Source: a virus
Virus record (IMG/VR): IMGVR_UViG_3300043602_000155
Location: 1 to 32,618 of that record
Direction: 5' to 3' (one strand)
DNA length: 32,618 nt
The notes beneath the pieces were generated by a model that did not search any database, had not been told where the DNA came from, and saw only the letters and a program-made list of their open reading frames with translations. This document shows positions 5,663 through 31,128 of this stretch, one piece after another (position 1 is the stretch's first letter; each line of letters opens with the position of its first letter). The position numbers were made by a program, and so were the translations under genes.

Positions 5663-5877
5663 ACCTCTACCTCGAAAGCGAGGGCAGAGGCGGCGGCGTG
5701 CCGGACTGGTATAGCTTTTTGCGGGCCGCGCGCTATCTGGGCGTGGCGCCGTGGGAGTTGCTGGCGCAGCAGCCGGCCTGGTTTTATCTGGCGCTGGAAA
5801 GCGAACAGGCGGAAATTCATGGCGAGAACAAACGGGCAGAGAAGCGACAGCGCAAATCTAGCAGGCACAGAACATGA
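5641..5877 (+). CDS. tail assembly chaperone, frameshift extension (GT-type)
   Basis: After the slip, the -1 frame reads PAQVRALNLYLESEGRGGG, then VPDWYSFLRAARYLGVAPWE and LLAQQPAWFYLALESEQAEI, ending in a lysine/arginine-rich tail and TGA 5875-5877. The W...L......GVAPWELL...P.W pattern is characteristic of the second tail chaperone of siphoviruses. It has no start codon with a ribosome site of its own, so it should be made as an approximately 192-residue fusion with the upstream 114 codons. The stop overlaps the tape measure ATG (ATGA). Confidence 0.87.
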   Translation, partial: PAQVRALNLYLESEGRGGGVPDWYSFLRAARYLGVAPWELLAQQPAWFYLALESEQAEIHGENKRAEKRQRKSSRHRT

Positions 5878-8459
5878 CCATTACTGCTGCTGAACTTGCG
5901 GTCAAGGTCACAGCCGATACATCCGCCGCCGAGAGCGGGCTGAAATCCTTCTCCGGCAAAATGGACAGCATGGCGGGGCAGATGGCCGGCGTGGGCGGTG
6001 TGCTTTCGGCCACTATCGGCGCGCCGCTGATTGGCATCGGCGTCAGCGCCATCAAGACGGCGGCCGGCTTTGAGCGCAGCATGAACGTGCTCGGCTATGC
6101 CTCGAATGCCACCGGCGACCAAATGCAGGCGATGAGCGACCTGGCTTTGCAGCTTGGCGCCGATACCGTATTTAGCGCCAACGAAGCGGCCGAGGGCATG
6201 GTTGATTTAGCCAAGGCGGGCATGGATACGCAAGAGGTGATGGACTCGATACCCGGCGTGATGGACTTGGCGGCAGCCGGCGCCATCAGCGTCAGCGATG
6301 CCGCAACCTTGACGGCGGCCACGCTCAACACCTTTGGCCTTGATGCCGCCGAGTCGGCCAAGGTGGCGGACGTCTTAGCGGCGGCCGCCAATGCCTCGGC
6401 GGCTGACATCTCCGACCTTGCTTACGGCGTGCAGAATGCCGGTTCGGTCTTTGCCACCAACGGCCAAAGTGTGGAAACACTGGCGACGATGATGGCGCTA
6501 CTCGCCAACAACGGCCTCAATGCCAGCGACGCTGCAACCAGCCTCAAGACGATGACGATGCGCCTGACCGCACCGACCGCCGCCGCCTCAAAGGTGATGA
6601 AGCAACTCGGTATCAACGTCTTCAACGCCGACGGCAGTATGCGTGATTACCACGACATCATCGGTGACATTGCCTCGGCAGCCAAGGGCATGTCCGACGC
6701 CCAGCGTGACGCCGCCTTTAACACGCTCTTTGGCGCCGACGCCATCCGCGCCGCCAACATCATGGCCGAAGAAGGCACCGCCGGCTATGAGGCGATGAAG
6801 ACCGCCGTCGAAGAACAGGGTGCGGCCTCCGAGATGGCGAACGCCCAGAATAGCGGCTTGGCCGGTGCAATGGAGCAGATTAGCGGCAGCATTGACAGCT
6901 TGATGACCAAGCTCGCCTTGCCTTTCCTCGACACCATTTCCGGCTGGATGGGCGGCTTGACCGATTTCGTCAACCAGTTGGGCGACCTGCCGCAGCCGGT
7001 AATCAACGCCTCGCTGGCTTTCTTGGGCTTTGCCGCCGCGGTCGGTGCGGTACTCTTGGCGGCAGCGGGCATTGCCACCGTGATCGGCGCCTTGGCAACA
7101 CCGATTGGCTTGGTTGCCTTGGTCGTGTTGGGTCTGGCGGCTGCCGTGGCCGCGCTGTGGCTGGCCTGGGAAACCAATTGGGGCAACATCCAGGGCAAGA
7201 CGGCGGCGGTGCTGGCGGTGATCCAGCCGTTGATTGAGACGCTGAGCAGCACGCTAAGCGGCATCGGCACCAGCCTGTCCACCTTTAAGATGCCGACGCT
7301 GACCGACTTAGGGAAGCTCAAGAGCGATATTGAATTCCAAATCAAGGCCACGGTCGAGACGCTGCTCGACCCGCCCAAGCTGACGATCATGCCTTTTCCC
7401 GACATGACGATTGACCCGCCCAAAGTGACGATCAAGCCCATACCGCAGGCGGCGATCACGGAGGCGGCCAAAGGCCCCGGATTGATGATCGACAACTTGA
7501 CGCAGACGATTGCGGGCGGCAACTGGGCGGGGGCCGGACGCTTGATGGGGACGCTGATCATCGCTCGCTGGAATACGGAAATCGCCAAGATTGAGCCATT
7601 TATCACCTTTATCGAAATCGCCGGCGCCTTTAGTCAGGCGATCCTCGGACTGCAAGGGGCCATGCTGGTGGCGCTGATCGGCTTCAGCTTGGCGCTGGAG
7701 GGAACCGGCCTGCCCGCCAAGATTGCGGCGCTCGGCGAGGCGATTGCGACGGCGGTCACGACCATGTGGACAAACCTGATGGCGACGGTCATGGGCGCCT
7801 TTATTGCGCCGGCGCCCGACAACACTTCCACCTCCGACACCCTGCGTGACCGCGCCGCCGCCAGCAGCTTTAAGTGGTCGGATTATATCCAGCCTTTGGT
7901 GTGGACGAGCTTTGTGCCGGACTTCGTTTGGTCAATCTTCGTGACGCCGCTGGACTGGGTGCTTTGGATTGCCAATCTGACCTGGTCAACCTTTGTCTCG
8001 GCTTTAGAGTGGGCGAGTTGGATTTCGACCTTTGACTGGGGAAGCTTTATCTCCGGCCTCAGTTGGCCGAGCTTTATCACGAGCCTATCCTGGGGAACCT
8101 TTATCTCCAGTCTGAGTTGGGCAACCTTTATCTCCAGCCTGAGCTGGTCGAGCTTTATCCCGGAAATGTCGTGGGCGAACTTTATTCCGCACATCGATTG
8201 GGGCCGCTTCATCCCCGCCTTTTCTCCGCCAAGCGTTTCGCCAGACGGGCCACAGCAAGACAATTTACAGAAAAAAAAGGATGACGCTACTATCGGCTTC
8301 GTGACAGCGGGCGCCTCATTCGCCACGGCGAGCTATGGCGGCGGCAGGGGAAACGGCGGGCCAACCATCGTTATCCAAAACGTCAACGTGCATAACGACA
8401 TGGATATCGAGGTGCTGGCGGGCAAGCTGGCGCGTCGTTTCCAGCAGAAGTTGAGATAA
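5874..8459 (+). CDS. tail tape measure protein
   Basis: The 861-residue product sets tail length and is ejected with DNA. Residues 1-360 match the TP901-type tape measure core: SGLKSFSGKMDSMAGQMAG, IKTAAGFERSMNVLG, LGADTVFSANEAAEGMVDLA and LLANNGLNASDAATSLKTMT. Residues about 370-435 form a long hydrophobic stretch (FLGFAAAVGAVLLAAAGIAT onwards), with a second near 583-610. Residues 666-782 are thirteen nine-residue repeats with one tryptophan each. The C-terminus is glycine-rich then helical. The ATG lies in an ATGA overlap with the chaperone extension. It is short for the family, which predicts a short tail if the helical scale of about 1.5 angstrom per residue holds. Confidence 0.93.
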   Translation: MTITAAELAVKVTADTSAAESGLKSFSGKMDSMAGQMAGVGGVLSATIGAPLIGIGVSAIKTAAGFERSMNVLGYASNATGDQMQAMSDLALQLGADTVFSANEAAEGMVDLAKAGMDTQEVMDSIPGVMDLAAAGAISVSDAATLTAATLNTFGLDAAESAKVADVLAAAANASAADISDLAYGVQNAGSVFATNGQSVETLATMMALLANNGLNASDAATSLKTMTMRLTAPTAAASKVMKQLGINVFNADGSMRDYHDIIGDIASAAKGMSDAQRDAAFNTLFGADAIRAANIMAEEGTAGYEAMKTAVEEQGAASEMANAQNSGLAGAMEQISGSIDSLMTKLALPFLDTISGWMGGLTDFVNQLGDLPQPVINASLAFLGFAAAVGAVLLAAAGIATVIGALATPIGLVALVVLGLAAAVAALWLAWETNWGNIQGKTAAVLAVIQPLIETLSSTLSGIGTSLSTFKMPTLTDLGKLKSDIEFQIKATVETLLDPPKLTIMPFPDMTIDPPKVTIKPIPQAAITEAAKGPGLMIDNLTQTIAGGNWAGAGRLMGTLIIARWNTEIAKIEPFITFIEIAGAFSQAILGLQGAMLVALIGFSLALEGTGLPAKIAALGEAIATAVTTMWTNLMATVMGAFIAPAPDNTSTSDTLRDRAAASSFKWSDYIQPLVWTSFVPDFVWSIFVTPLDWVLWIANLTWSTFVSALEWASWISTFDWGSFISGLSWPSFITSLSWGTFISSLSWATFISSLSWSSFIPEMSWANFIPHIDWGRFIPAFSPPSVSPDGPQQDNLQKKKDDATIGFVTAGASFATASYGGGRGNGGPTIVIQNVNVHNDMDIEVLAGKLARRFQQKLR
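7869..8219 (+). repeat. thirteen 27-bp units encoding Trp nonapeptides
   Basis: Thirteen consecutive nonapeptides run FKWSDYIQP, LVWTSFVPD, FVWSIFVTP, LDWVLWIAN, LTWSTFVSA, LEWASWIST, FDWGSFISG, LSWPSFITS, LSWGTFISS, LSWATFISS, LSWSSFIPE, MSWANFIPH, IDWGRFIPA. The pattern is hydrophobic-x-W-x-x-(F/W/Y)-(I/V)-x-x. DNA identity is highest in the middle units, suggesting recent copying there. The phase is unbroken and ends just before a Pro/Ser-rich stretch. Confidence 0.93.
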
Positions 8460-11670: not shown

Positions 11671-14600
11671 ATGCCGAGTAACAAAGCATCCTCACAGGCT
11701 GACCTGCTCTACCCCTATTTGCTCAAACGCTTCCAACGATTCTTTGGCAACGGGCATGGCGGCGGCGGCAGCGCCGTTAGCGGCGGGCGGCTGGCGACTT
11801 TGCAGGATGTCAATCTCGGCACGCTCACGGACGGCCAGGTGCTGACCTATGACGGCACGACGGCGATGTGGCGCAACGAGGATGCGACCGGCGGCAGCGG
11901 TGGCGGGCCGACCTACATTGCCGGCAACGGCATTGACATCAGCGGCACGACGATCTCGACCAAGCACGACACGGTGGGCGGGATAGGTGCGACGAGCGCC
12001 GGGTTGTATCTCAAGAAGCCCTCCGACAGCGGCCTCATCCTCGATAGTACGGGCGTCAAGATTGGGGCCGGCGTCGGATTGGATGTGCTGGGCAACTTTG
12101 TCAGCGTCGATGCGACCGAGATCACCGACACGACCAGAGGGCTTGGCGTCAACTCCAACCTGATCTATGTGCGGACGGAGGCGGGCGGCGGCATCGAGTT
12201 TGCCGGCGACGGTTCCGTGCGCGTTGACGAGGACGCCGACTTTTTGTGGACAGGCACGCACCAGTTTAACAGCCCTGTGCAGATGCATACTGACATCAAC
12301 TTTATCGCCGCCGACCGCCAGTTTACCAGCAGCGCCGGCATCGACGTCACCTGGAATCTGGGCGGCGACCTGATGCTGGCCTCGGCCAAGACCGAGCGCA
12401 GCACCGATTACCTCGACGGCATCCCGATTAACGGCTATAGCTTACATATCAACAGCGGCGGCTTCCGCCAGTTGACGACGCACGCCATCAAGGCCGACGA
12501 GCTGCACGTCCGCACCTTCATCGCCGACACCGTGCGCGTCGACGTCGGTGAAGAGTACTGGGGAAAGTCGATGGGTATCGTCTACCAGGACTTTACCGTG
12601 CCTGCCATCGGCGCCACCGTCGCCGTCACCTTTGAGGATTCGGTGGCGCTGGTCGGTGCGCTCTTTGCCAATGGCGACTGGATCATGATCTCGTCGGTCG
12701 AAGTCGGCACCGGGCTTGAGGTCAACCAGCTATGGGGCCAGGTCAGCGGCTATGTGCCTTTGGCGGCTGACATCAACGGCATTACCCGCCAGCGCTGGAC
12801 GTATACGCACCGCGCAGGCACGCCCGGCATCGTCGTCAAGAAGGGGCGGCTGGCGGTGGACTTTGGCGTCAGCGGGCAGGGCTATGTCCACCTCAGCACG
12901 CTCGACAGCGCCGACGGGCCGTGGATTCGTATTGGCGACTGGACGGGCGCCAACCCTTACGCGGCGGGCAACAGCCACATCCGCACGCAGATCGGCCTGC
13001 TCGACGGCATCGGCGACGCCGACCTCAACCCCACGGGCTGGGGCTTGTACAGCGACAACGCCTATCTACACGGCATGTTACGCACTGCCGAGACGGTGCT
13101 GGACGATGACGGGCTGGCGATTCTGATGCCGACCTTGCCGGGTGGTTGGGCGCCGGGCATTCACTCCGAGATTGCCTGGTGGTTCGATGTACTGGATCGC
13201 AGCGCCAATCCTCCGGCCAGCATTGCCGGCTATCAGCTCGATACCGGTTCGCCGCCGGTCTCGAATCGCCTTGAGCTGGAGGTGAGAAAGACCGATGACG
13301 CCGATTACTCCTATCTGAGCCTCAACGCCACCGATGACGGCGGGCCGATTGGCTCTACCAATATCCGTCTGGTGAGTACGGGCAATATCTATGTAGAGGC
13401 TGATCTTGGCGTCATCTTCGAGGGCGCGGTGCTGCCTGAGTTCGATGTGACCTTTGACCTCGGCAGCGCCTCGAAACGCTGGCGCAATCTGTACATTGAC
13501 CATCTCTTTGTCAGCGGCACGATTGCCGGTGATACCTTGTCGGGCGCTGAGTGGGAATATCCGGGCAGCATGATCATCGACGCCCACGCCGCCACCCCAA
13601 CCGTTGTCAGCGTCACCAATCAGGGCAGCGGCACAGCCTCGCTGGATGTCGAGGGCAACATCACGCTCGGCGGCACCGTGGACGGCATCGACATCAGCGC
13701 CCATGCCGCCAACCCTGCCGCCCATCATGCGCTGGCGACGGCCGGTGACGGGCTGCTCATTACAGGCCAGCAGCTACGCGTTGACCCGCTCTTGGCCGGT
13801 GGCGGCTTGACCTATACGGCGGGCGGCATCCTGGCCGTCGGCGCAGGTTCCGGTATCGTCGTCGCCGCCAACAGCATCGCCATCGACCCAAGCTATGCCA
13901 TGCCGACCACGCGCCGCGTCGATACCGCTGCTCCGCTAACCGGCGGCGGCGAGTTGAGCGTTGACCTCACGCTGGGCTTGACCCTTGCGCCGGCGGGCGG
14001 GCTGGGTATCACGGGCGGGCTGGGCTTGGCGCCGAGCGTCGCCGGTGACGGCCTGACCTTGACGGCAGGCGTCTTGGCGGTCGGCGTCGGTGCGGGGCTG
14101 GTGGCTGGTGCTGATGCCGTGACACTGGCCGCGACTTTGGCCGGCGCCGGCTTGACCTTGACAACCGGTGTGCTGGCGGTTGGGGCCGGTGATGGGCTGG
14201 TCGCCAATGCCGATACGATGGCGCTCGACCCGCTGGTGGGCGGCGCGGGGCTGACCTATACGGCGGGTGTGTTGGCGGTTGGGGCCGGTGATGGGCTGGT
14301 CGCCAATGCCGATACGATGGCGCTCGACCCGCTGGTGGGCGGCGCGGGGCTGACCTATACGGCGGGTGTGTTGGCGGTTGGCACGGGCGTGGGTATCCAG
14401 GTCAACGCCAACGACATCCAGATTGTGCTGGCCTCGCCATCCGGCCTCAACACGACCAGCGGGCTGGCAATCGATGCGGCGCTTGCCGGTGCGGGTCTGG
14501 CGCTGAGCGCAGCCAAAGCCTTGAGCGTCAACGCCGCCAAAGGCGTCAAGATTGGCGCCGGCGCTGACGTGGACAATGTGATTGTCGATACCGCCTATAA

Positions 14601-22927: not shown

Positions 22928-23259
22928 CCACCTCGCACATCTACTACGCCTATACCGAGGCCGGCACGCCGCAGACGGTCTGGGCCTACAATGGCGGCAG
23001 CACACGCCGCGCCGCCGTGGTCTATGCCTGCCACATGCGCGACCCCATGTACGAGCGTGAGCCGGCGCCTGACGAGCTGCGGCTGATTGTCGAATACTGC
23101 GAACACTTCATCAACGCGCCGTGCTGGGTATTCCCGGCGGATGAGATTCGCCTCTTGCGCCTGAGCATCCTGCGCGTGCGGACGACCGAGCAGTTGACCG
23201 GCTGGCTGTGGCTGTGCGGCGAGATTGGGCTGGGGCCGGTGCTGGGGGTGACGCTGTGA
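22924..23259 (+). CDS. hypothetical protein downstream of the initiator
   Basis: The 111-residue product begins in an ATGA overlap with the initiator gene: MTTSHIYYAYTEAGTPQTVW. A strand-rich start is followed by helices with charged and aromatic residues (ELRLIVEYCEHFINAPCWVF, RLLRLSILRVRTTEQLTGWL). Four cysteines are spread through it without a clear metal-site spacing. Coupling to the initiator suggests a replication accessory such as a loader, but no Walker motif is present and the protein is too short for an ATPase. It overlaps the next gene by 4 bases (GTGA). Confidence 0.6.
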   Translation: MTTSHIYYAYTEAGTPQTVWAYNGGSTRRAAVVYACHMRDPMYEREPAPDELRLIVEYCEHFINAPCWVFPADEIRLLRLSILRVRTTEQLTGWLWLCGEIGLGPVLGVTL

Positions 23260-23528
23260 CCCGCCAACCGTACCGCAAGCCGCTACCGCCGGTAAATGAG
23301 ATTGAGCCGATCGCATGCGGGCCGGAGGCCATTACCGATAATCTCAAGCCGTGTCCATTCTGCGGTGGTCAGGCAACCATGATTACCAGTTCCAAGCCGC
23401 TGATTATCGTGGAGTGCGAAACGTGCTTCGCAAAGGTGTCGAGTCTGGACGGTCTTGCAGATGCCATCGCCGCCTGGAACCGCCGCCCGGAGGATTTGCC
23501 TATGTCGCCGGGGGCGACCATTTTATGA
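23256..23528 (+). CDS. Lar-like zinc-ribbon protein
   Basis: From a GTG start in a GTGA overlap the product is 90 residues. The core is LKPCPFCGGQATMI, then IVECETCFAKVSS and ADAIAAWNRRPE. This CPFCGG - C-x-x-C - W-N-R-R pattern is the signature of the Lar (restriction alleviation) family. Lar itself reduces type I restriction of unmodified DNA, but most phage members are untested. The first residues TRQPYRKPLPP recur at the start of the next protein. The frame remains open to 23208 but the ATG there lies inside the upstream gene. Confidence 0.82.
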   Translation: MTRQPYRKPLPPVNEIEPIACGPEAITDNLKPCPFCGGQATMITSSKPLIIVECETCFAKVSSLDGLADAIAAWNRRPEDLPMSPGATIL

Positions 23529-23561
23529 AGACGCGCCCGTACCGCAAGCCGCTACCGCCGG
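23269..23561 (+). repeat. 24-bp direct repeat at the starts of two neighbouring genes
   Basis: The same 24 bases occur at 23269-23292 and 23538-23561. Each encodes PYRKPLPP a few residues after a start codon (TRQPYRKPLPPVNE and MKTRPYRKPLPPAPAP). This looks like copying of a short basic-proline leader between adjacent genes. The coordinates span both copies and the gene between them. Confidence 0.9.
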
Positions 23562-24331
23562 CGCCGGCACCCGCCGAGCGCATGGCGCGCAAATTAGAAG
23601 AGCGGCAGAAGGCGAAAGAGCAGCGCCAGGCGAAGAAGGTGGTCACCAGGTACGCCGGCCTCGTCTACGACTATGGCACGATTGACGAGGATAAGCGGGA
23701 ACGGGTGCAGGATGCGGCGCTCAAGATTCGCCAACACGAACGGCGGGCCATGCAAGACCTTGTAGCTATTGGCCAGGAGTTGATCGTCGTGCGCGACCTT
23801 TTGCCGCGTGGCGAGTTTGTCAAGTGGATTGGAGAAGAGTTTGGCTGGAGCAATGGCAGCGCCTACGACTTCATCAATATGGCTTTGCGTGCCGATCATT
23901 TTTCCAAATTTGGAAATTTGGGTATCAGTAACGCCCGTCTTTTGTCGGCGCCATCGGTATCAGATGAGGTCATTGCCGCGGTGATTGAGGCCACGCAGGC
24001 CGCCGGCAAACCGCTGCCGATCAAGGACGTGCGCGCCATCCGTGATACGCTCCAGCCACGCCAGCCTAAGCGCCTGCGAGGGCCGCAGGATTGGCCGCAG
24101 GATGAGCCGCAACTACCTAGCATTGACGCCGAATACACGGTACTACCCAAAGACGAATTCATCTTTCCCAGCCGGGCCATGACGCCCGACAAGATAGCGC
24201 CTATCATTGGGCGTGAGCTTGGCCGCAAGTTACAGGATGCGCTGGTGCATCGCATAATGAAGGCGCTGCTGACGCCGGACGAACACGACGAGCTATTGAT
24301 TGCGCTGACAAGGGCATTAGGGGAGGAATAA
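23525..24331 (+). CDS. DUF3102-like protein
   Basis: The 268-residue product starts at ATG 23525 in an ATGA overlap. A basic N-terminus (ARKLEERQKAKEQRQAKKVV) is followed by a helical domain, residues about 65-120: RRAMQDLVAIGQELIVVRDL, then PRGEFVKWIGEEFGWSNGSA and YDFINMALRADHF. This IGxxLxxxxxxLxHGxFxxWxxxxFGxSxxTAxxxMxxA pattern is typical of DUF3102/ParB-like HTH proteins in phages and plasmids. The C-terminal part is long and charged. It probably binds DNA. The longer frame from 23351 shadows the Lar-like gene. Confidence 0.75.
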   Translation: MKTRPYRKPLPPAPAPAERMARKLEERQKAKEQRQAKKVVTRYAGLVYDYGTIDEDKRERVQDAALKIRQHERRAMQDLVAIGQELIVVRDLLPRGEFVKWIGEEFGWSNGSAYDFINMALRADHFSKFGNLGISNARLLSAPSVSDEVIAAVIEATQAAGKPLPIKDVRAIRDTLQPRQPKRLRGPQDWPQDEPQLPSIDAEYTVLPKDEFIFPSRAMTPDKIAPIIGRELGRKLQDALVHRIMKALLTPDEHDELLIALTRALGEE

Positions 24332-24332
24332 A

Positions 24333-24521
24333 TTGACCATTGAAATCAGCCGGCAAAGCGGTACCTTTACCTACCGCATCTGTCCGCGTGACCCGTTTCT
24401 GATTGAACGGAAAGAAAACCGGCATGGGGCCAGGTGGACATGGCACGAATACTATGACTCGGCGGACGAGGCGAGGGCGGCATTGATGGCGATTGGCAAA
24501 GAAGAAAGGGAGCAAAAATGA
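24333..24521 (+). CDS. small hypothetical protein with TTG start
   Basis: The 62-residue product starts at TTG 24333, seven bases after a perfect GGAGGA. Sequence: MTIEISRQSGTFTYRICPRD, then RWTWHEYYDSADEARAALMA and a charged end. The strand-strand-helix shape with W-x-E-Y-Y is common among small phage proteins of unknown function. It ends in ATGA with the TcmP-like gene. Confidence 0.68.
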   Translation: MTIEISRQSGTFTYRICPRDPFLIERKENRHGARWTWHEYYDSADEARAALMAIGKEEREQK

Positions 24522-25339
24522 GACGGGCGCATGGCGATAGCAACTATACACCGACCAAACAAAGACACCTACAAATGATTTGCGATGGCTGCACAAATGG
24601 ATGGCGAAGCCTCTGCACGCTTAAGCCCGATTCGCTCCTTGTCGTGATCGATAGTACAGCGGGATCAGGACACAGCAAGGAAGGGGCAGCGGGTTCGCCG
24701 CTTATCCTCAACCGTCATTTTGCCAAACATTTTCACGACAATTTCCGTCAGCTTTGTTGTGAAAAAGATAAGCCGAATTTTGAGAACTTATCAAAAGAAT
24801 CTCTTGTTAACTGCGATATTATTCACGGTGAGTATCAACAAGTGATCCTGCCGTGGCTGTGTAATCTCAGATGGTCGGGCCGCTTTCATGGTTTGATCTA
24901 TTGCGATCCCAATGGCATCGTTGACGCGCTCGCGGGTGTTGACCTTTTTAAACAACTGCAATCTGACTATCGGTTTGACCGCATCGACCTACTTTTTAAT
25001 ATTTCGCTCAATGCCTATAAACGTCATAAGTCACCAGGTGTCATCAAGAAAACGTACCATGATGATCCCCCTGAGTGGCTCACCGTTCCCCTTATCGAGC
25101 ATCTCGATAATCTTGCCGCACTAAAGAAGGCGACCTATATTCGCAGTGAAGAAGGCCGCTTACTGGAGTTTATTATGTTATATGGCATGAACACGGCTAA
25201 AGTCAGTCTCAAGCGCAGTACTGAGAACATAGTTCACTATGAGGAATGGCGCAAGAACGCCGAGAAGTATTTAAACGGGGGCATCAAAGTGTCTCCTTTT
25301 CAGAAGGGGCTATTTGATGAATCACCAAATGGGCTTTGA
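24518..25339 (+). CDS. tcmP: TcmP-like protein (three-Cys-motif partner)
   Basis: The 273-residue product begins in an ATGA overlap. Family features: YTPTKQRHLQMICDGCTNG, then the core LLVVIDSTAGSGHSKEGAAG-SPLI, which matches the Y-x-D-x-F-A-G-x-G...GSP glycine-rich core of TcmP, and LIYCDPNGI (a D-P-N-G element), then IDLLFNISLNAYKR. TcmP is named for neighbouring the three-Cys-motif protein Gp37/Gp68, and here such a gene follows and overlaps by 23 bases. The gene is clearly richer in A+T than its neighbours, pointing to recent acquisition. Its reaction is unknown; the D-P-N-G and glycine-rich loop recall a methyltransferase fold. Confidence 0.78.
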   Translation: MRRAHGDSNYTPTKQRHLQMICDGCTNGWRSLCTLKPDSLLVVIDSTAGSGHSKEGAAGSPLILNRHFAKHFHDNFRQLCCEKDKPNFENLSKESLVNCDIIHGEYQQVILPWLCNLRWSGRFHGLIYCDPNGIVDALAGVDLFKQLQSDYRFDRIDLLFNISLNAYKRHKSPGVIKKTYHDDPPEWLTVPLIEHLDNLAALKKATYIRSEEGRLLEFIMLYGMNTAKVSLKRSTENIVHYEEWRKNAEKYLNGGIKVSPFQKGLFDESPNGL

Positions 25340-26639
25340 ACTGGCCGTCAGCAATGGCGAGATGACCGAGGGAGAAGCGCGTCTTTATCTCAAGCATATC
25401 AACGATTCCAGCAAGGCATTGATGTTGCAGTTCGCTACCTTCAAGCGCCGGCGCGGCTTTGCCGTCTTGGGCTATAACAACCTGCCGGATTGCATCCGCG
25501 AAGAATGCCCTGTCTTTGCGGAGTATACAGGGGCAAGAATTTACCAACTGGCCGATGCGGGAGAGGTTTTAGCGAATATCAGCGAGAGTCAACAAATTGT
25601 TGAAAATGCAATTTCGGAGAGCCAACTTCGTCCGATAGCGCAAGCTAAATTGCGGCCGCAGGAGCAGCGAGAAGTCTGGGGGCGAGTGGTCGAGAGTGCG
25701 CCGGAAGGCAAAGTGACGGCGGCTCATGTAACGAGTACGGTCGCAGCCTATCGGCAAGAGAATCACGCAAGCGTGCAGCCCTTGACTATCCGCAAGCCAT
25801 CCGGCATCAAAGCCTATCTGGTCGATGAGTGGGAGCGCCTAAGCTACGATGAGCGCACCTATCTGCTGGAGATGAGCGGGACTGGCCAGTTCAACGCCAC
25901 CAACGATAATGTAGAGTGGGCGCGCTGGACATGGAACCCGATCACCGGATGCCTTCACAATTGCGCGTACTGCTATGCCAGGGACATCGCCAACCATATC
26001 TATAAGCATCTGCCCGATGGCGAACGTTTCTCGCCCGCCTTCTATCCCGAACGCCTCGCCTTTCCTGAGAACACAAAAGCGCCGGACGTATCTCGAATCG
26101 ATGATCCAGTTACGGCGATGGGCCTTCGCAATGTCTTTACCTGCTCAATGGCCGATCTCTTTGGCAAGTGGGTTCCGACCGAATGGATTGAAGCGGTTCT
26201 CGCCCAGATTGCGGCCAATCCGCAGTGGACTTTCCTCCTGCTTACCAAGTTCCCGATCCGCATGGCCGAGTTCCGCTTTCCGCCGAACACCTGGATCGGG
26301 ACAACGGTTGACTACCAGTACGCGGTGGATCGGGCCGAAAAAGCCTTCCGCAAGATTCGGGCATCGGGCTATGAGGGCGTGGCCTGGTTGTCATGTGAGC
26401 CGATGATGGAGCGCCTCACATTCTCAAGCCTTGATATGTTTGATTGGCTGGTGATGGGTGGCGCAAGCCAGTCCAGCCAAACGCCCGCATTTGCGCCGCC
26501 GCTTGAATGGTGGATGAGTCTTTGGCAGCAAGCACAAGCGATCCACCTGCCCGTCTATATGAAAACGAACCTCATTCAGCAGGACGGCAGACCGATTGCC
26601 TTTGATGGGCGCATCCGTGAATACCCACACCTCGCATAA
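25317..26639 (+). CDS. Gp37/Gp68 (DUF5131) radical-SAM-like protein with extra N-terminal domain
   Basis: From ATG 25317 (AAGGGG upstream; a TTG at 25314 is also possible) the product is 440 residues. Residues about 205-440 are the phage Gp37/Gp68 family: WNPITGCLHNCAYCYARDIA carries Cys212, Cys216 and Cys219 in CX3CX2C spacing as in radical SAM enzymes, then FTCSMADLFGKWVP, WTFLLLTKFP, NTWIGTTVDYQ, WLSCEPMMERL and WLVMGGASQSS. Residues 1-200 are unusual: QLRPIAQAKLRPQEQREVWG with GKVTAAHVTSTVA resembles the linker/HTH part of ParB-like proteins. No substrate is known for the family. It overlaps the TcmP-like gene. Confidence 0.85.
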   Translation: MNHQMGFELAVSNGEMTEGEARLYLKHINDSSKALMLQFATFKRRRGFAVLGYNNLPDCIREECPVFAEYTGARIYQLADAGEVLANISESQQIVENAISESQLRPIAQAKLRPQEQREVWGRVVESAPEGKVTAAHVTSTVAAYRQENHASVQPLTIRKPSGIKAYLVDEWERLSYDERTYLLEMSGTGQFNATNDNVEWARWTWNPITGCLHNCAYCYARDIANHIYKHLPDGERFSPAFYPERLAFPENTKAPDVSRIDDPVTAMGLRNVFTCSMADLFGKWVPTEWIEAVLAQIAANPQWTFLLLTKFPIRMAEFRFPPNTWIGTTVDYQYAVDRAEKAFRKIRASGYEGVAWLSCEPMMERLTFSSLDMFDWLVMGGASQSSQTPAFAPPLEWWMSLWQQAQAIHLPVYMKTNLIQQDGRPIAFDGRIREYPHLA

Positions 26640-27515: not shown

Positions 27516-28304
27516 ATGGCGTACCAATTGATACAGGGCGATTGCCTCGACATCTTGCCGACGCTTGAGGCGGGAAGCGTGGACGCGGTGATTACTGACT
27601 TGCCCTATGGCAACGGTCAAACGGCGTGTAAGTGGGACAGTATAATTCCGCTTGATGAGATGTGGGAGCAGGTGAAACGCCTACTCAAGCCAAGAGGCGC
27701 ATTTGTCACGACGGCAAGTCAACCGTTTGCGAGTCGCTTGATTATGAGCAACGTTGAGCAATTTCGGCATGAATGGGTGTGGGACAAGCAGAGCGCGTCA
27801 AGCCCTTTGCATTCCCGAATTGCGCCAAAGCGAAGTCACGAAAGCATATTGGTTTTTGGGCAAACAGGCCATAAATACAACCCTGTTATGTGGGACAAAG
27901 GCAAGCCAAACGGCAATCGAGGAACCGCTCCGCGTGAGTTTGCTATAGGTTGTCGGCAAGATTACGCCAAGGAATTTTCGCACAAAGCCGATGGCAATTC
28001 CCGCTATCCACTGAGTGTAATTCGATTGCCGTTTCAGGTTGGCGAATGCAATAACACTTTGCGCGTTCACCCAACCCAAAAGCCTGTCGCCCTTTACGAG
28101 TACCTCATCCGCACCTACACCAACGCGGGCGATACGGTACTAGATTTCACGATGGGCAGCGGCACAACGGGAGTTGCAGCCATCAAAGAGGGACGGCGGT
28201 TTATCGGCGTGGAACTTGACCCAACCTATTTCGCCATCGCCCAGAAGCGCATTGACGAGGCCGCTATGCAATTGCCCTTGTTTGAGATGGAAGGGGCGGC
28301 CTAA
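27516..28304 (+). CDS. DNA adenine-type methyltransferase, beta order
   Basis: The 262-residue product opens YQLIQGDCLDILPTL, then VDAVITDLPYGNGQTACKWD: motif IV is DLPY (Asp28-Tyr31) in place of DPPY. LLKPRGAFVTTAS follows, and HPTQKPVALYEYLIRTYTNA precedes motif I DFTMGSGTTGVAA (Asp210) and GRRFIGVELD. Order IV-then-I marks the beta class, and D-x-P-Y favours N6-adenine methylation. The recognition region is about residues 85-170. No restriction enzyme gene is near, so it is an orphan that could protect phage DNA. The gene is somewhat less GC-rich than its neighbours. Its TAA overlaps the lysin ATG. Confidence 0.9.
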   Translation: MAYQLIQGDCLDILPTLEAGSVDAVITDLPYGNGQTACKWDSIIPLDEMWEQVKRLLKPRGAFVTTASQPFASRLIMSNVEQFRHEWVWDKQSASSPLHSRIAPKRSHESILVFGQTGHKYNPVMWDKGKPNGNRGTAPREFAIGCRQDYAKEFSHKADGNSRYPLSVIRLPFQVGECNNTLRVHPTQKPVALYEYLIRTYTNAGDTVLDFTMGSGTTGVAAIKEGRRFIGVELDPTYFAIAQKRIDEAAMQLPLFEMEGAA

Positions 28305-30154
28305 TGGCGCTGCTCTACTCCGTCCACGACCGTGACGGCCACGCCATCGTTCCCGCCGGCGGCTATTGCGTCGATGCCGTATTGGTCACGGACGAACCGC
28401 CCAACTATGGCGCCATACGCTCGGACATCAACTGGATTGTGCGGCTCAATCACGGCTGGTATCCCAACGGCACCATCCCACTGCGCCCCGACTATCCGGC
28501 CTTTGCCAAACGCTGCGCCGCCTTCGCCGCCCGCTGTCCAGCGGTCAACGTCTTTATCGTCGCCAACGAGCCGAACCATCGCCAGGAATGGCCTGGTGGC
28601 GACACGATTGAGCCGGAAGATTACGCCGACTGCTTCAACCTGTGCTACCAGGCGATCACCTACGAACGGCCCGATGCCGAGGTGCTGACCGCCGCTGTGG
28701 CGCCGTGGGACAATACCAGCGGCATCGACTGGCTGAGCTATTACAAGCAGATGCTGGCCGCCATCGTCGATTGTGACGGCCTGGCGGTACACGGATACAC
28801 GCACGGCGCCGACCCCAATCTGATTTGGTCGATGGAGAAGCAGCACGGCTGGTACTGGCACTTCCCGGTTATCTACCAGACGATTCAGGCGATCCCGCCC
28901 AAGTTTGCCACGCGGCCGGTGCATGTGACCGAAACCGACCAGGGCGACGACGCCTGGCTCGATGGCAATACGGGTTGGGTGCAAAACGCCTATCAGTCGG
29001 TCAACGAACACAACATGACGCCCGGCACGCAGAAGGTGTGCAGCCTGGCGCTCTACCGCTGGCGCGGCGATAAGTACGAGCTGCACAACAAAGACGGCGT
29101 GCAGGACGATTTTAGCGACGCTGTACGCCACGGCTACATCTCGCCGCTACCGGAGTTGCCGGAGCCGCCACGCCCGACGCCACCCAACCCACAACCTGAG
29201 CCGCCACGGCCAACACCGCCACCGCCTGAGCCAACGCGGGACATCGACCCGCGCCTGATCGCCCGCGGCGTGCATTTCGACTTTGCCAAGCCGCCGGAAG
29301 GCGTAGGCTACTGGCGCATCACCTCGGCGACCTGGCTCGACGAGGCTGAGGCCGATGCCGTCGGGCCGGATCACCACATTTTAGGGACAATCAAGCGCGC
29401 CCAGCAGGAAGTGGCCGGCGTGCTGATGCTCGTCAGTTGGCCCAGCGGCAGCGGCCGCGTCATCAGCAAGGCCGACCAGGCGTATGCGACCTATAATTGG
29501 GACTTCCCGATGTCGGCCTCGCTCAACGAGTTCTCAATCAAGGTCGATGACGGCGCGCCCAGCGACGCCGCCCACGGCATCGGCATGGGCAAGGGCGGCA
29601 ATCCGGGCATCCACACATCCACCTGGATTGAGTACGAATGGACAATATCCGAGGGCATTACAGTGCCCGTACCACCCTTTCCTCCACGACCGGAGCCGGC
29701 AGGGGATTTGACCCATCCCCTGCCAGGCTCGGTCATCACGCAGCACTGGGGCGAGAACGCCGCCAACTATGCCCGCTTTGGCATCTGGGGCCATAACGGA
29801 ACCGACCTCGGCGGCAGACCCTCACGGACGCCGGTACGCTGCCTCGCCGCCGGCATCGTGGCGTACTCCGATTTTGACGCGGCGTATGGTCACTACGTGC
29901 GCGTCGACCACCCTCAGCTTGGCTGCTATTCGATGTATTGCCACCTCGACGAGCCGGGCGCGCTCGAAGGCATACGGCTAGAGGCGGGCGCAACGGTCGG
30001 GCTGCTCGGTACAAGCGGCAACAGCAGCGGCGTGCATCTGCACCTGGAGATTCGCCTGCACAACGCCGACGGCACGTACCGCGAGGACTGCCCGATGCCG
30101 AAGGGCCGCGTTGACCCGCAGACGTGGGCAATTCTTCTCGGGCTGAAGCTATGA
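28304..30154 (+). CDS. modular lysin: GH-A-like glycosidase, beta domain, M23 peptidase
   Basis: The 616-residue product has three parts. Residues 1-280 look like a TIM-barrel glycosidase: VNVFIVANEPNH (Glu89, clan GH-A acid/base type) and VHVTETDQG (Glu210, nucleophile candidate), with DGLAVHGYTHG between them. A proline-rich linker runs about 280-310. Residues 312-450 form a beta-rich module starting GVHFDFAKPPEGVGYW. After a second proline linker, residues about 471-616 are M23/LytM: GHNGTDLGG (His497, Asp501) and VHLHLEI (His578, His580), and a repeated G-x-x-V/L strand pattern. No signal peptide. It should cut both glycan and peptide bonds of the wall. The glycosidase target is not known. 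Confidence 0.83.
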   Translation: MALLYSVHDRDGHAIVPAGGYCVDAVLVTDEPPNYGAIRSDINWIVRLNHGWYPNGTIPLRPDYPAFAKRCAAFAARCPAVNVFIVANEPNHRQEWPGGDTIEPEDYADCFNLCYQAITYERPDAEVLTAAVAPWDNTSGIDWLSYYKQMLAAIVDCDGLAVHGYTHGADPNLIWSMEKQHGWYWHFPVIYQTIQAIPPKFATRPVHVTETDQGDDAWLDGNTGWVQNAYQSVNEHNMTPGTQKVCSLALYRWRGDKYELHNKDGVQDDFSDAVRHGYISPLPELPEPPRPTPPNPQPEPPRPTPPPPEPTRDIDPRLIARGVHFDFAKPPEGVGYWRITSATWLDEAEADAVGPDHHILGTIKRAQQEVAGVLMLVSWPSGSGRVISKADQAYATYNWDFPMSASLNEFSIKVDDGAPSDAAHGIGMGKGGNPGIHTSTWIEYEWTISEGITVPVPPFPPRPEPAGDLTHPLPGSVITQHWGENAANYARFGIWGHNGTDLGGRPSRTPVRCLAAGIVAYSDFDAAYGHYVRVDHPQLGCYSMYCHLDEPGALEGIRLEAGATVGLLGTSGNSSGVHLHLEIRLHNADGTYREDCPMPKGRVDPQTWAILLGLKL

Positions 30155-31128
30155 ATTACCAACTCCTACAAGGCGACTGCATCGAAGTGATGCGAACGCT
30201 TCCCGCCGGCAGCGTGCAATGTTGCGTGACGAGTCCGCCGTATTTCGGCTTGAGGGCGTACTTGGACAATGCCGACCCTAATAAGCCGCTTGAGGTTGGC
30301 ACGGAGGAAACGCCCGACGCCTACGTCGCCAAATTGGTTGACGTGTTTAGAGAAGTGCGGCGGCTGCTGCGGGATGATGGCGTTCTGTGGCTGAATTTGG
30401 GCGACAGTTACGCCAACACGGGAAATCCGGGGCAAGACTTTAGCGCGTCTACGGTTGGCTATGGCGGCAAGGGGCGCGGGCATTTGGGCGGACAACCAAA
30501 GAAGATTATTCCCACTGGTATTAAACAAAAGGATTTATTTGGCATCCCCTGGCTCGTCGCCTTTGCCCTACGCGCGGATGGCTGGTGGCTACGCAGCGAG
30601 GTGATATGGGCAAAGAAAGCACCGATGCCGGAAAGCGTCACCGACAGGCCGACCAAGGCGCATGAGCAAGTGTTTTTGCTGACCAAGAGCGCGAATTATT
30701 TCTACGATGCGGATGCCATCGCTGAACCGGCGCAAGTATGGACAGGACAAGCCGCCACCTTTGCCCGTAGCGGGCCTGTCTCGGATCACATCCTACCTGG
30801 CCAAAGCGCGGCGCAACATCGTTCTGACAGGACGGATAGCGTTACGGCAAGCACACGAAATCGCAGGTCAGTTTGGTCATTGGGGCCGGAAAGTTATCAG
30901 GGCGCCCACTTCGCCACGATGCCGACCAAGCTAGTTGAGCCTTGCATCCTGGCCGGTAGCAGGGTGGGCGATACGGTACTTGACCCGTTCGCCGGCAGCG
31001 GCACAACCGTCGCCGTTGCGCTCAAGCATGGGCGGCGCGGCCTGGGCATCGACCTCAACCCTGCCTATATCGAACTGGCGCATGAGCGTATTCGCCGCAC
31101 GCAGCCAATGTTGCTGGCGGCAGATTAA
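30151..31128 (+). CDS. DNA methyltransferase, N4-cytosine type
   Basis: Starting at ATG 30151 in an ATGA overlap, the product is 325 residues. Motif IV is TSPPYFGLRAY (Ser28-Tyr31), the S-P-P-Y form typical of N4-cytosine enzymes, although some adenine enzymes share it. It continues with LLRDDGVLWLNLGDSYANTG, ALRADGWWLRSEVIWAKK and HEQVFLLTKSANYFYDADAI, and motif I DPFAGSGTTVAVAL (Asp278) with GRRGLGIDLNPAYIELA near the end. This is the beta class again. The recognition region probably lies at residues about 185-255. No cognate nuclease is seen. It opens with YQLLQGDCIEVMRTL, very like the other methyltransferase (YQLIQGDCLDILPTL). Confidence 0.9.
   Translation: MNYQLLQGDCIEVMRTLPAGSVQCCVTSPPYFGLRAYLDNADPNKPLEVGTEETPDAYVAKLVDVFREVRRLLRDDGVLWLNLGDSYANTGNPGQDFSASTVGYGGKGRGHLGGQPKKIIPTGIKQKDLFGIPWLVAFALRADGWWLRSEVIWAKKAPMPESVTDRPTKAHEQVFLLTKSANYFYDADAIAEPAQVWTGQAATFARSGPVSDHILPGQSAAQHRSDRTDSVTASTRNRRSVWSLGPESYQGAHFATMPTKLVEPCILAGSRVGDTVLDPFAGSGTTVAVALKHGRRGLGIDLNPAYIELAHERIRRTQPMLLAAD

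Follow-up and report, generated by a model that had tools for sequence, protein, structure and literature searches.

We describe a phage-borne cassette of two adjoining genes, a TcmP-like protein and a DUF5131 protein with an additional N-terminal module, which we tentatively interpret as a DNA-targeted, two-enzyme system for nucleic-acid modification that is most likely used for counter-defence. The N-terminal part, or head, of the second protein has been exchanged between related viruses, and this suggests that the chemistry of the pair is aimed at particular DNA. The cassette was identified in a 32,618-base IMG/VR virus record of an uncultivated phage, and the term window is used here for the whole of this contig. 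The features of the cassette are as follows:

24518..25339, plus strand: gene 1, TcmP-like protein of 273 residues with a predicted RlmJ-like class I methyltransferase fold
24557..24559, plus strand: Lys14 of TcmP, aligned with catalytic Lys18 of RlmJ in a joint MAFFT alignment
24650..24670, plus strand: SAM-binding motif I of TcmP, DSTAGSG (consensus DLxAGxG), defined from the alignment of relatives and aligned with RlmJ
24905..24916, plus strand: motif IV of TcmP, DPNG, with Asp130 aligned with catalytic Asp164 of RlmJ
25317..26639, plus strand: gene 2, DUF5131 protein with N-terminal extension, 440 residues from the ATG at 25317
25404..25769, plus strand: all-helical N-terminal module (not ParB), presumed DNA-binding, defined by AF2 helices and by homologues in viral relatives, in a fusion on a Streptomyces plasmid and, without DUF5131, on cyanobacterial plasmids
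25812..25874, plus strand: linker motif YLVDEWERLSYDERTYLLEMS, of the L-x-x-W-x-x-L type, common to ParB-headed and helical-headed relatives
25881..26639, plus strand: predicted radical-SAM barrel domain (DUF5131), nearest in fold to spore photoproduct lyase
25950..25973, plus strand: CX3CX2C 4Fe-4S motif, CLHNCAYC, assigned from the conservation of its cysteines

A two-gene unit of a TcmP-like protein and a three-Cys partner had been proposed in a preliminary description, and this arrangement was borne out by the reading frames, by the CX3CX2C motif at Cys212/216/219 (numbered from the ATG) and by matches to PF07505 and to a TcmP family model. The two genes overlap by 23 bases, with a good ribosome-binding site (AGAAGGGG) located 5' of the gene 2 ATG and an in-frame TTG at 25314 ahead of this start. 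Gene 1 scores 30.9 bits against TIGR04474 (E=2.5e-7), which is below the NCBIfam cut-off of 53, and TcmP relatives from viral contigs also score under this cut-off. A family model built from 62 genes that neighbor the three-Cys (DUF5131) genes of relatives nevertheless gives gene 1 a score of 179 bits. Since it adjoins a DUF5131 gene and is homologous to other such neighbors, gene 1 is, judged by sequence, a divergent TcmP in this wider sense.

The chemistry of the unit had been described as unknown, and fold together with active-site residues now points to an RlmJ-like methyltransferase acting beside a spore-photoproduct-lyase-like radical-SAM enzyme. The AF2 model of TcmP (pLDDT 86, pTM 0.84) has RlmJ structures as its best Foldseek matches (1.8e-7), and VIA-align likewise places RlmJ at the top with a Z of 15.2 over 206 residues, followed nearby by COMT at 14.4. 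Comparison of profiles alone by HHalign pairs TcmP with RlmJ at 95.5% (P 1.5e-8) as against 0.2% for unrelated controls. The two RlmJ catalytic residues have counterparts in K14 and D130, which are invariant among phage TcmPs; Lys14 is a lysine in all 49 relatives that have a letter at that column and the motif IV Asp is present in 50 of 50 sequences. Both the K18A and the D164A substitutions inactivate RlmJ, an enzyme that is active on RNA but does not modify single-stranded DNA (PMC3814359). TcmP thus shares with RlmJ (the 23S rRNA A2030 N6-methyltransferase, PF04378) a common fold, motif I, a GSP motif and the catalytic Lys and Asp, but the two differ in that the stretch from motif I to GSP is longer in RlmJ, in that an RNA substrate is known for RlmJ only, and in motif IV. 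RlmJ-type m6A methyltransferases carry DPP[YF] at this position, with DPPY in RlmJ itself, whereas TcmP of the window has DPNG and most phage relatives have DPN, which lacks the second Pro and the aromatic residue. Given that phage TcmPs have DPN and bacterial TcmPs mostly DP[FY]G instead of DPPY, the substrate may differ from that of RlmJ. Overall, TcmP is predicted to be a methyltransferase of RlmJ-like fold that has kept the SAM-binding motif and two catalytic residues.

Gene 2 matches PF07505 (DUF5131, "Gp37/Gp68") over residues 199-417 with 127.9 bits against a cut-off of 28.9 (E=5.9e-37). The Cys triad is invariant in 142 of 142 DUF5131 domains, and the invariant LTK, S-x-E-P and G residues of these domains are all present in the gene 2 protein. 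Sequence searches of the PDB with a single TcmP or DUF5131 protein gave no match. The AF2 model of DUF5131 (pLDDT 86) aligns to many radical-SAM structures, with a partial TIM barrel and the three-Cys motif. Spore photoproduct lyase, a DNA repair enzyme of the radical-SAM type that carries out radical chemistry on DNA bases, accounts for the top six Foldseek and the top six VIA-align matches, the latter with a Z of 14.3 and an rmsd of 3.8 over 224 residues as compared with 11.8 for the next family, RlmN. HHalign supports the same relationship at 71% (P 3.8e-5). DUF5131 is therefore best described as a predicted radical-SAM domain with an intact cluster motif and a fold nearest to that of spore photoproduct lyase. 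The CX3CX2C motif is common to DUF5131 and spore photoproduct lyase (PF20903), and F...D and TK motifs are roughly in register, but identity is just 14%, DUF5131 is paired with TcmP and the donor Cys is not strictly kept. Specifically, spore photoproduct lyase uses an essential hydrogen-donor Cys, C141 in B. subtilis (PMC3742179). Cys276 of gene 2 (277 in P0002 numbering) lies near this position, but it is a Cys in 105 of 142 domains with Asn, Gly, Val or Asp in the others, and its register is off by two residues, so that an exact equivalence of the two residues was not upheld. As the donor Cys has no strictly conserved counterpart, the reaction of DUF5131 is probably not that of spore photoproduct lyase.

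The partner protein had been noted as longer than a bare Gp37/Gp68 domain, and we confirm that it carries an extension of ~190 residues ahead of the DUF5131 domain. Most Gp37/Gp68 proteins lack these residues; when sequenced genomes were scanned, the majority of DUF5131 domains were seen to start within a few residues of the protein start. The preliminary description had likened the extension to ParB-like or DUF3102 proteins, a likeness that is weak in the window's own module. Sorting of the extended sequences by head yields 40 of ParB type, 9 that are helical (the window included) and 6 others, with six apparent extensions judged to be overlong reading frames (L079, L081, L082, L088, L102 and L140) left out of these counts. 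The N-terminal part of the ParB-headed family profile matches solved Noc and ParB structures at 2e-7, and by sequence the head of most extended relatives is a true ParB domain. In contrast, the helical module of the window is not one. A Pfam search with residues 1-190 of gene 2 returned no ParB domain and no DUF3102 match up to an E of 1, and HHalign of the module against the ParB-type heads of relatives gave 0.1%; a GxxR-type ParB domain and DUF3102 as the module's family were both rejected on these grounds. Likeness to helix-turn-helix (HTH) proteins is suggestive at most, at E 0.11 to the DNA-binding part of Noc and at E 0.05 to Pfam HTH_ParB for one relative. The module without DUF5131 is also found on plasmids of Nostoc, Calothrix and Tolypothrix, up to 52% identical to the version in locus L034, and on the Tolypothrix plasmid it sits near a ParB gene. 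That the module binds DNA is presumed, and the earlier proposal of a radical-SAM domain carried to DNA is reasonable given ParB in most relatives and the occurrence of the window's module alone on plasmids.

A maximum likelihood tree of the radical-SAM domain, built from 44 extended proteins together with bare ones, unites the former in a single clade (100/98) that excludes the latter. One subclade of 22 (100/99) has mixed heads. Within the tree the window, with a helical head, and the viral locus L004, with a ParB head, are sisters at 97/94; their radical-SAM domains are 72% identical and their TcmPs 57% identical. Identity between the two gene 2 proteins is only about 0.13-0.2 over residues 31-150 and then climbs again via the linker into the barrel. 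The helical heads require at least three changes, on the branches starred in the tree. That the window and its nearest relative carry different heads indicates that one head replaced another on an enzyme pair that was retained.

TcmP adjoins the gene 2 homologue in 62 of 82 viral loci. Distances of TcmP and DUF5131 are correlated (Mantel r 0.74, with 0 of 2000 permutations as high), a correlation that fits co-adaptation and shared descent alike. In a survey of 198 Actinomycetota and 151 Chloroflexota genomes, with phyla taken from the titles of the centre genomes, 29 of the 40 DUF5131 loci examined have a TcmP-like neighbor and 37 are bare by reading-frame length. Three actinobacterial frames (L199, L203 and L212) are long. 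In cell genomes DUF5131 thus very rarely carries an extension and in most cases has TcmP as its neighbor. Among uncultivated viral contigs the extended form is common, and it occurs additionally in a few genomes and, with TcmP adjoining, on two Streptomyces plasmids. It is absent from the 50,697 named phage records searched, where no record matched over 80% of the length of either extended query and two TcmP queries had no match at all; short DUF5131 proteins were seen in the named phages examined (Erythrobacter phage R6L, Bipper, ANMV-1 and Confidence). The rule that the extension occurs only in pairs with TcmP holds in the viral sample and is not general because bacterial pairs are bare. A head-fused DUF5131 with TcmP is also present in cultivable hosts, namely in a Streptomyces genome (L084) and on the two Streptomyces plasmids (L189 and L191).

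The cassette had also been described as AT-richer than its neighbors, and this applies to TcmP, which at 46.5% GC is the lowest 822-base stretch in the window (mean 59.9%, z -3.35), but less so to the second gene at 55.6%. In 47 of 50 relatives TcmP has a lower GC than the sequence around it, with a mean difference of 4.9 points, so low GC characterizes TcmP genes generally and is no mark of recent transfer. Of the proposal that the cassette is mobile defence or counter-defence cargo, we retain that the pair is mobile and that its bacterial version is a listed defence candidate, and we reject low GC as proof of recent acquisition. At the other extreme, GC peaks at 0.71 at 13900-14500 (plus strand) in a 1934-residue tail protein, where near-identical AGDGLVANADTMALDPLVGGAGLTYTAGVL units stand in tandem. 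Other features of the window are as follows:

925-1890: major capsid protein
5874-8459: tape measure
23208-23528, plus strand: Lar-like restriction-alleviation protein (phrog_599, E 5e-12), just upstream of the cassette
23525-24331, plus strand: DUF3102-like protein P0003 (DUF3102 E 1.1e-4, just under the curated cut-off), upstream of the cassette
27516-28304 and 30124-31128, plus strand: two N6/N4-type DNA methyltransferases (PF01555)
28304-30154: M23 peptidase protein of 616 residues between the two DNA methyltransferase genes, probably a phage lysin
31452-32494, plus strand: QueT, queuosine precursor transporter (PF06177, E=1.3e-24), directly after a 199-residue protein

P0003 is weakly similar to the first helices of the cassette's module (E 0.009 with filters off), and no relatives of it were found outside this phage, which recurs in a second sample. 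The 199-residue protein ahead of QueT belongs to phrog_15826, of unknown function class; by eye it may resemble phage DpdA/TGT-like proteins, and with QueT it possibly forms a 7-deazaguanine DNA modification pair. DNA methyltransferases occur in just 6 of 21 related contigs and QueT in 1 of 22 records, so a DNA-modification neighborhood is not a general feature and a dependence of the cassette on these genes was rejected as a general rule.

In the interpretation that we tentatively favor, the module would dock the radical-SAM enzyme on particular DNA, for instance an element that enters the cell, the phage genome or the phage origin, where the pair would then alter bases. TcmP may transfer a methyl group to an exocyclic amine while DUF5131 may act through 5'-deoxyadenosyl radical chemistry, and the most likely use would be counter-defence, with phage DNA made unreadable to restriction enzymes or other DNA sensors. 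Counting in its favor are the pairing with its Mantel correlation, the RlmJ-like TcmP, the spore-photoproduct-lyase-like DUF5131 and head swapping, and in this phage also the two DNA methyltransferases and the Lar-like protein nearby, with QueT fitting as well. Counting against it are the RNA specificity of RlmJ, the DPN form of motif IV, the donor Cys that is not strictly conserved, the weak HTH likeness of the module and the scarcity of DNA methyltransferases among related contigs. The main rival, which we judge somewhat unlikely, is a phage-carried defence module that would act in a lysogen or infected cell, with the head recognizing the invader and the pair attacking or marking the DNA of competing phages. 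Head swapping would suit changing targets, and PADLOC lists the bare bacterial pair as PDC-M30/M41. The study that found the candidate defence system PDC-M30 by "guilt-by-embedding" predicted it for 32 of 100 P. aeruginosa strains, with phage resistance in 68.8% of these carriers (PMC10855318), and for S. meliloti TcmP and the Hna defence gene appear next to each other in a listing, with neighboring locus tags (PMC12445080). However, the PADLOC listing is an unvalidated candidate for bare DUF5131, the scanned genes of the contig included no recognizable integrase, and no nuclease-like domain was found in TcmP or the gene 2 protein.

Modification of rRNA, tRNA or mRNA, as with RlmJ and the radical-SAM enzymes RlmN and Cfr, would make the module an RNA-binding or regulatory part. 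The nearest fold of TcmP is an rRNA methyltransferase and RlmN is the second-best fold for DUF5131, but most extended relatives carry ParB, a DNA-binding fold, and the Z of spore photoproduct lyase is 2.5 units above that of RlmN, which leaves this reading improbable. The best fold match of DUF5131, spore photoproduct lyase, would suit a unit that repairs phage DNA by reversing photolesions or alkylation, with TcmP as an accessory. This seems slightly less probable still, as the hydrogen-donor Cys is not strictly conserved, a methyltransferase is ill-suited to direct reversal and sequence-addressing heads are odd for a lesion-repair enzyme. Least probable of all in our judgment is a role for the module in plasmid-like partition or in regulating its own operon, with enzymes whose chemistry is unrelated to DNA; the lone module near a ParB gene in Tolypothrix and the likeness of ParB heads to partition proteins would fit, but every extended relative has a head joined to its enzyme, and that one position is filled by DNA-binding modules of different types. 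We also consider, as a speculative and rather improbable proposal, a mobile, re-targetable DNA hypermodification in which TcmP methylates a base amine, DUF5131 then functionalizes the methylated base, and exchangeable heads (ParB, plasmid-type helical and others) set the location. If true, DNA would here be modified by a polar and then a radical step of SAM chemistry, with interchangeable modules providing the address. Both TcmP and DUF5131 are widespread yet uncharacterized, and the fold and active-site evidence names concrete residues. Additionally, head exchange on a conserved pair is a natural experiment in which the head should decide the DNA target.

Comparison with known systems places the cassette beside the PADLOC candidates PDC-M30 and PDC-M41, which together with TIGR04474 and PF07505 define the identical two families in the same neighboring arrangement. 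The PDC-M30A and PDC-M41B/M30B models match the pair as adjoining components, weakly for A (1.3e-5) and at 7.4e-31 for B. Those pairs, however, have a bare DUF5131 of ~245 residues and a TcmP with DP[FY]G, whereas the window has a head of ~190 residues, DPN and a TIGR04474 score below cut-off. ParB-headed TcmP/DUF5131 pairs in viral contigs and on a Streptomyces caniferus plasmid (L191) share the operon and the extended clade, L004 being the nearest, and differ by a true ParB N-terminal domain in place of the helical module. A head of the window's type follows TcmP on plasmid unnamed3 of Streptomyces sp. NBC_01238 (L189), which is plasmid-borne, about 35% identical and annotated only as "hypothetical protein" and "DUF5131 family protein". 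In the open literature searched we found no paper on DUF5131 by name, TcmP was mentioned in tables, and no description of the fused-head architecture was found, which others may have seen. The pair itself is an already listed, uncharacterized defence candidate (PADLOC PDC-M30); what this analysis adds is the catalytic residues that resemble those of RlmJ, a fold like that of spore photoproduct lyase and heads that can be exchanged.
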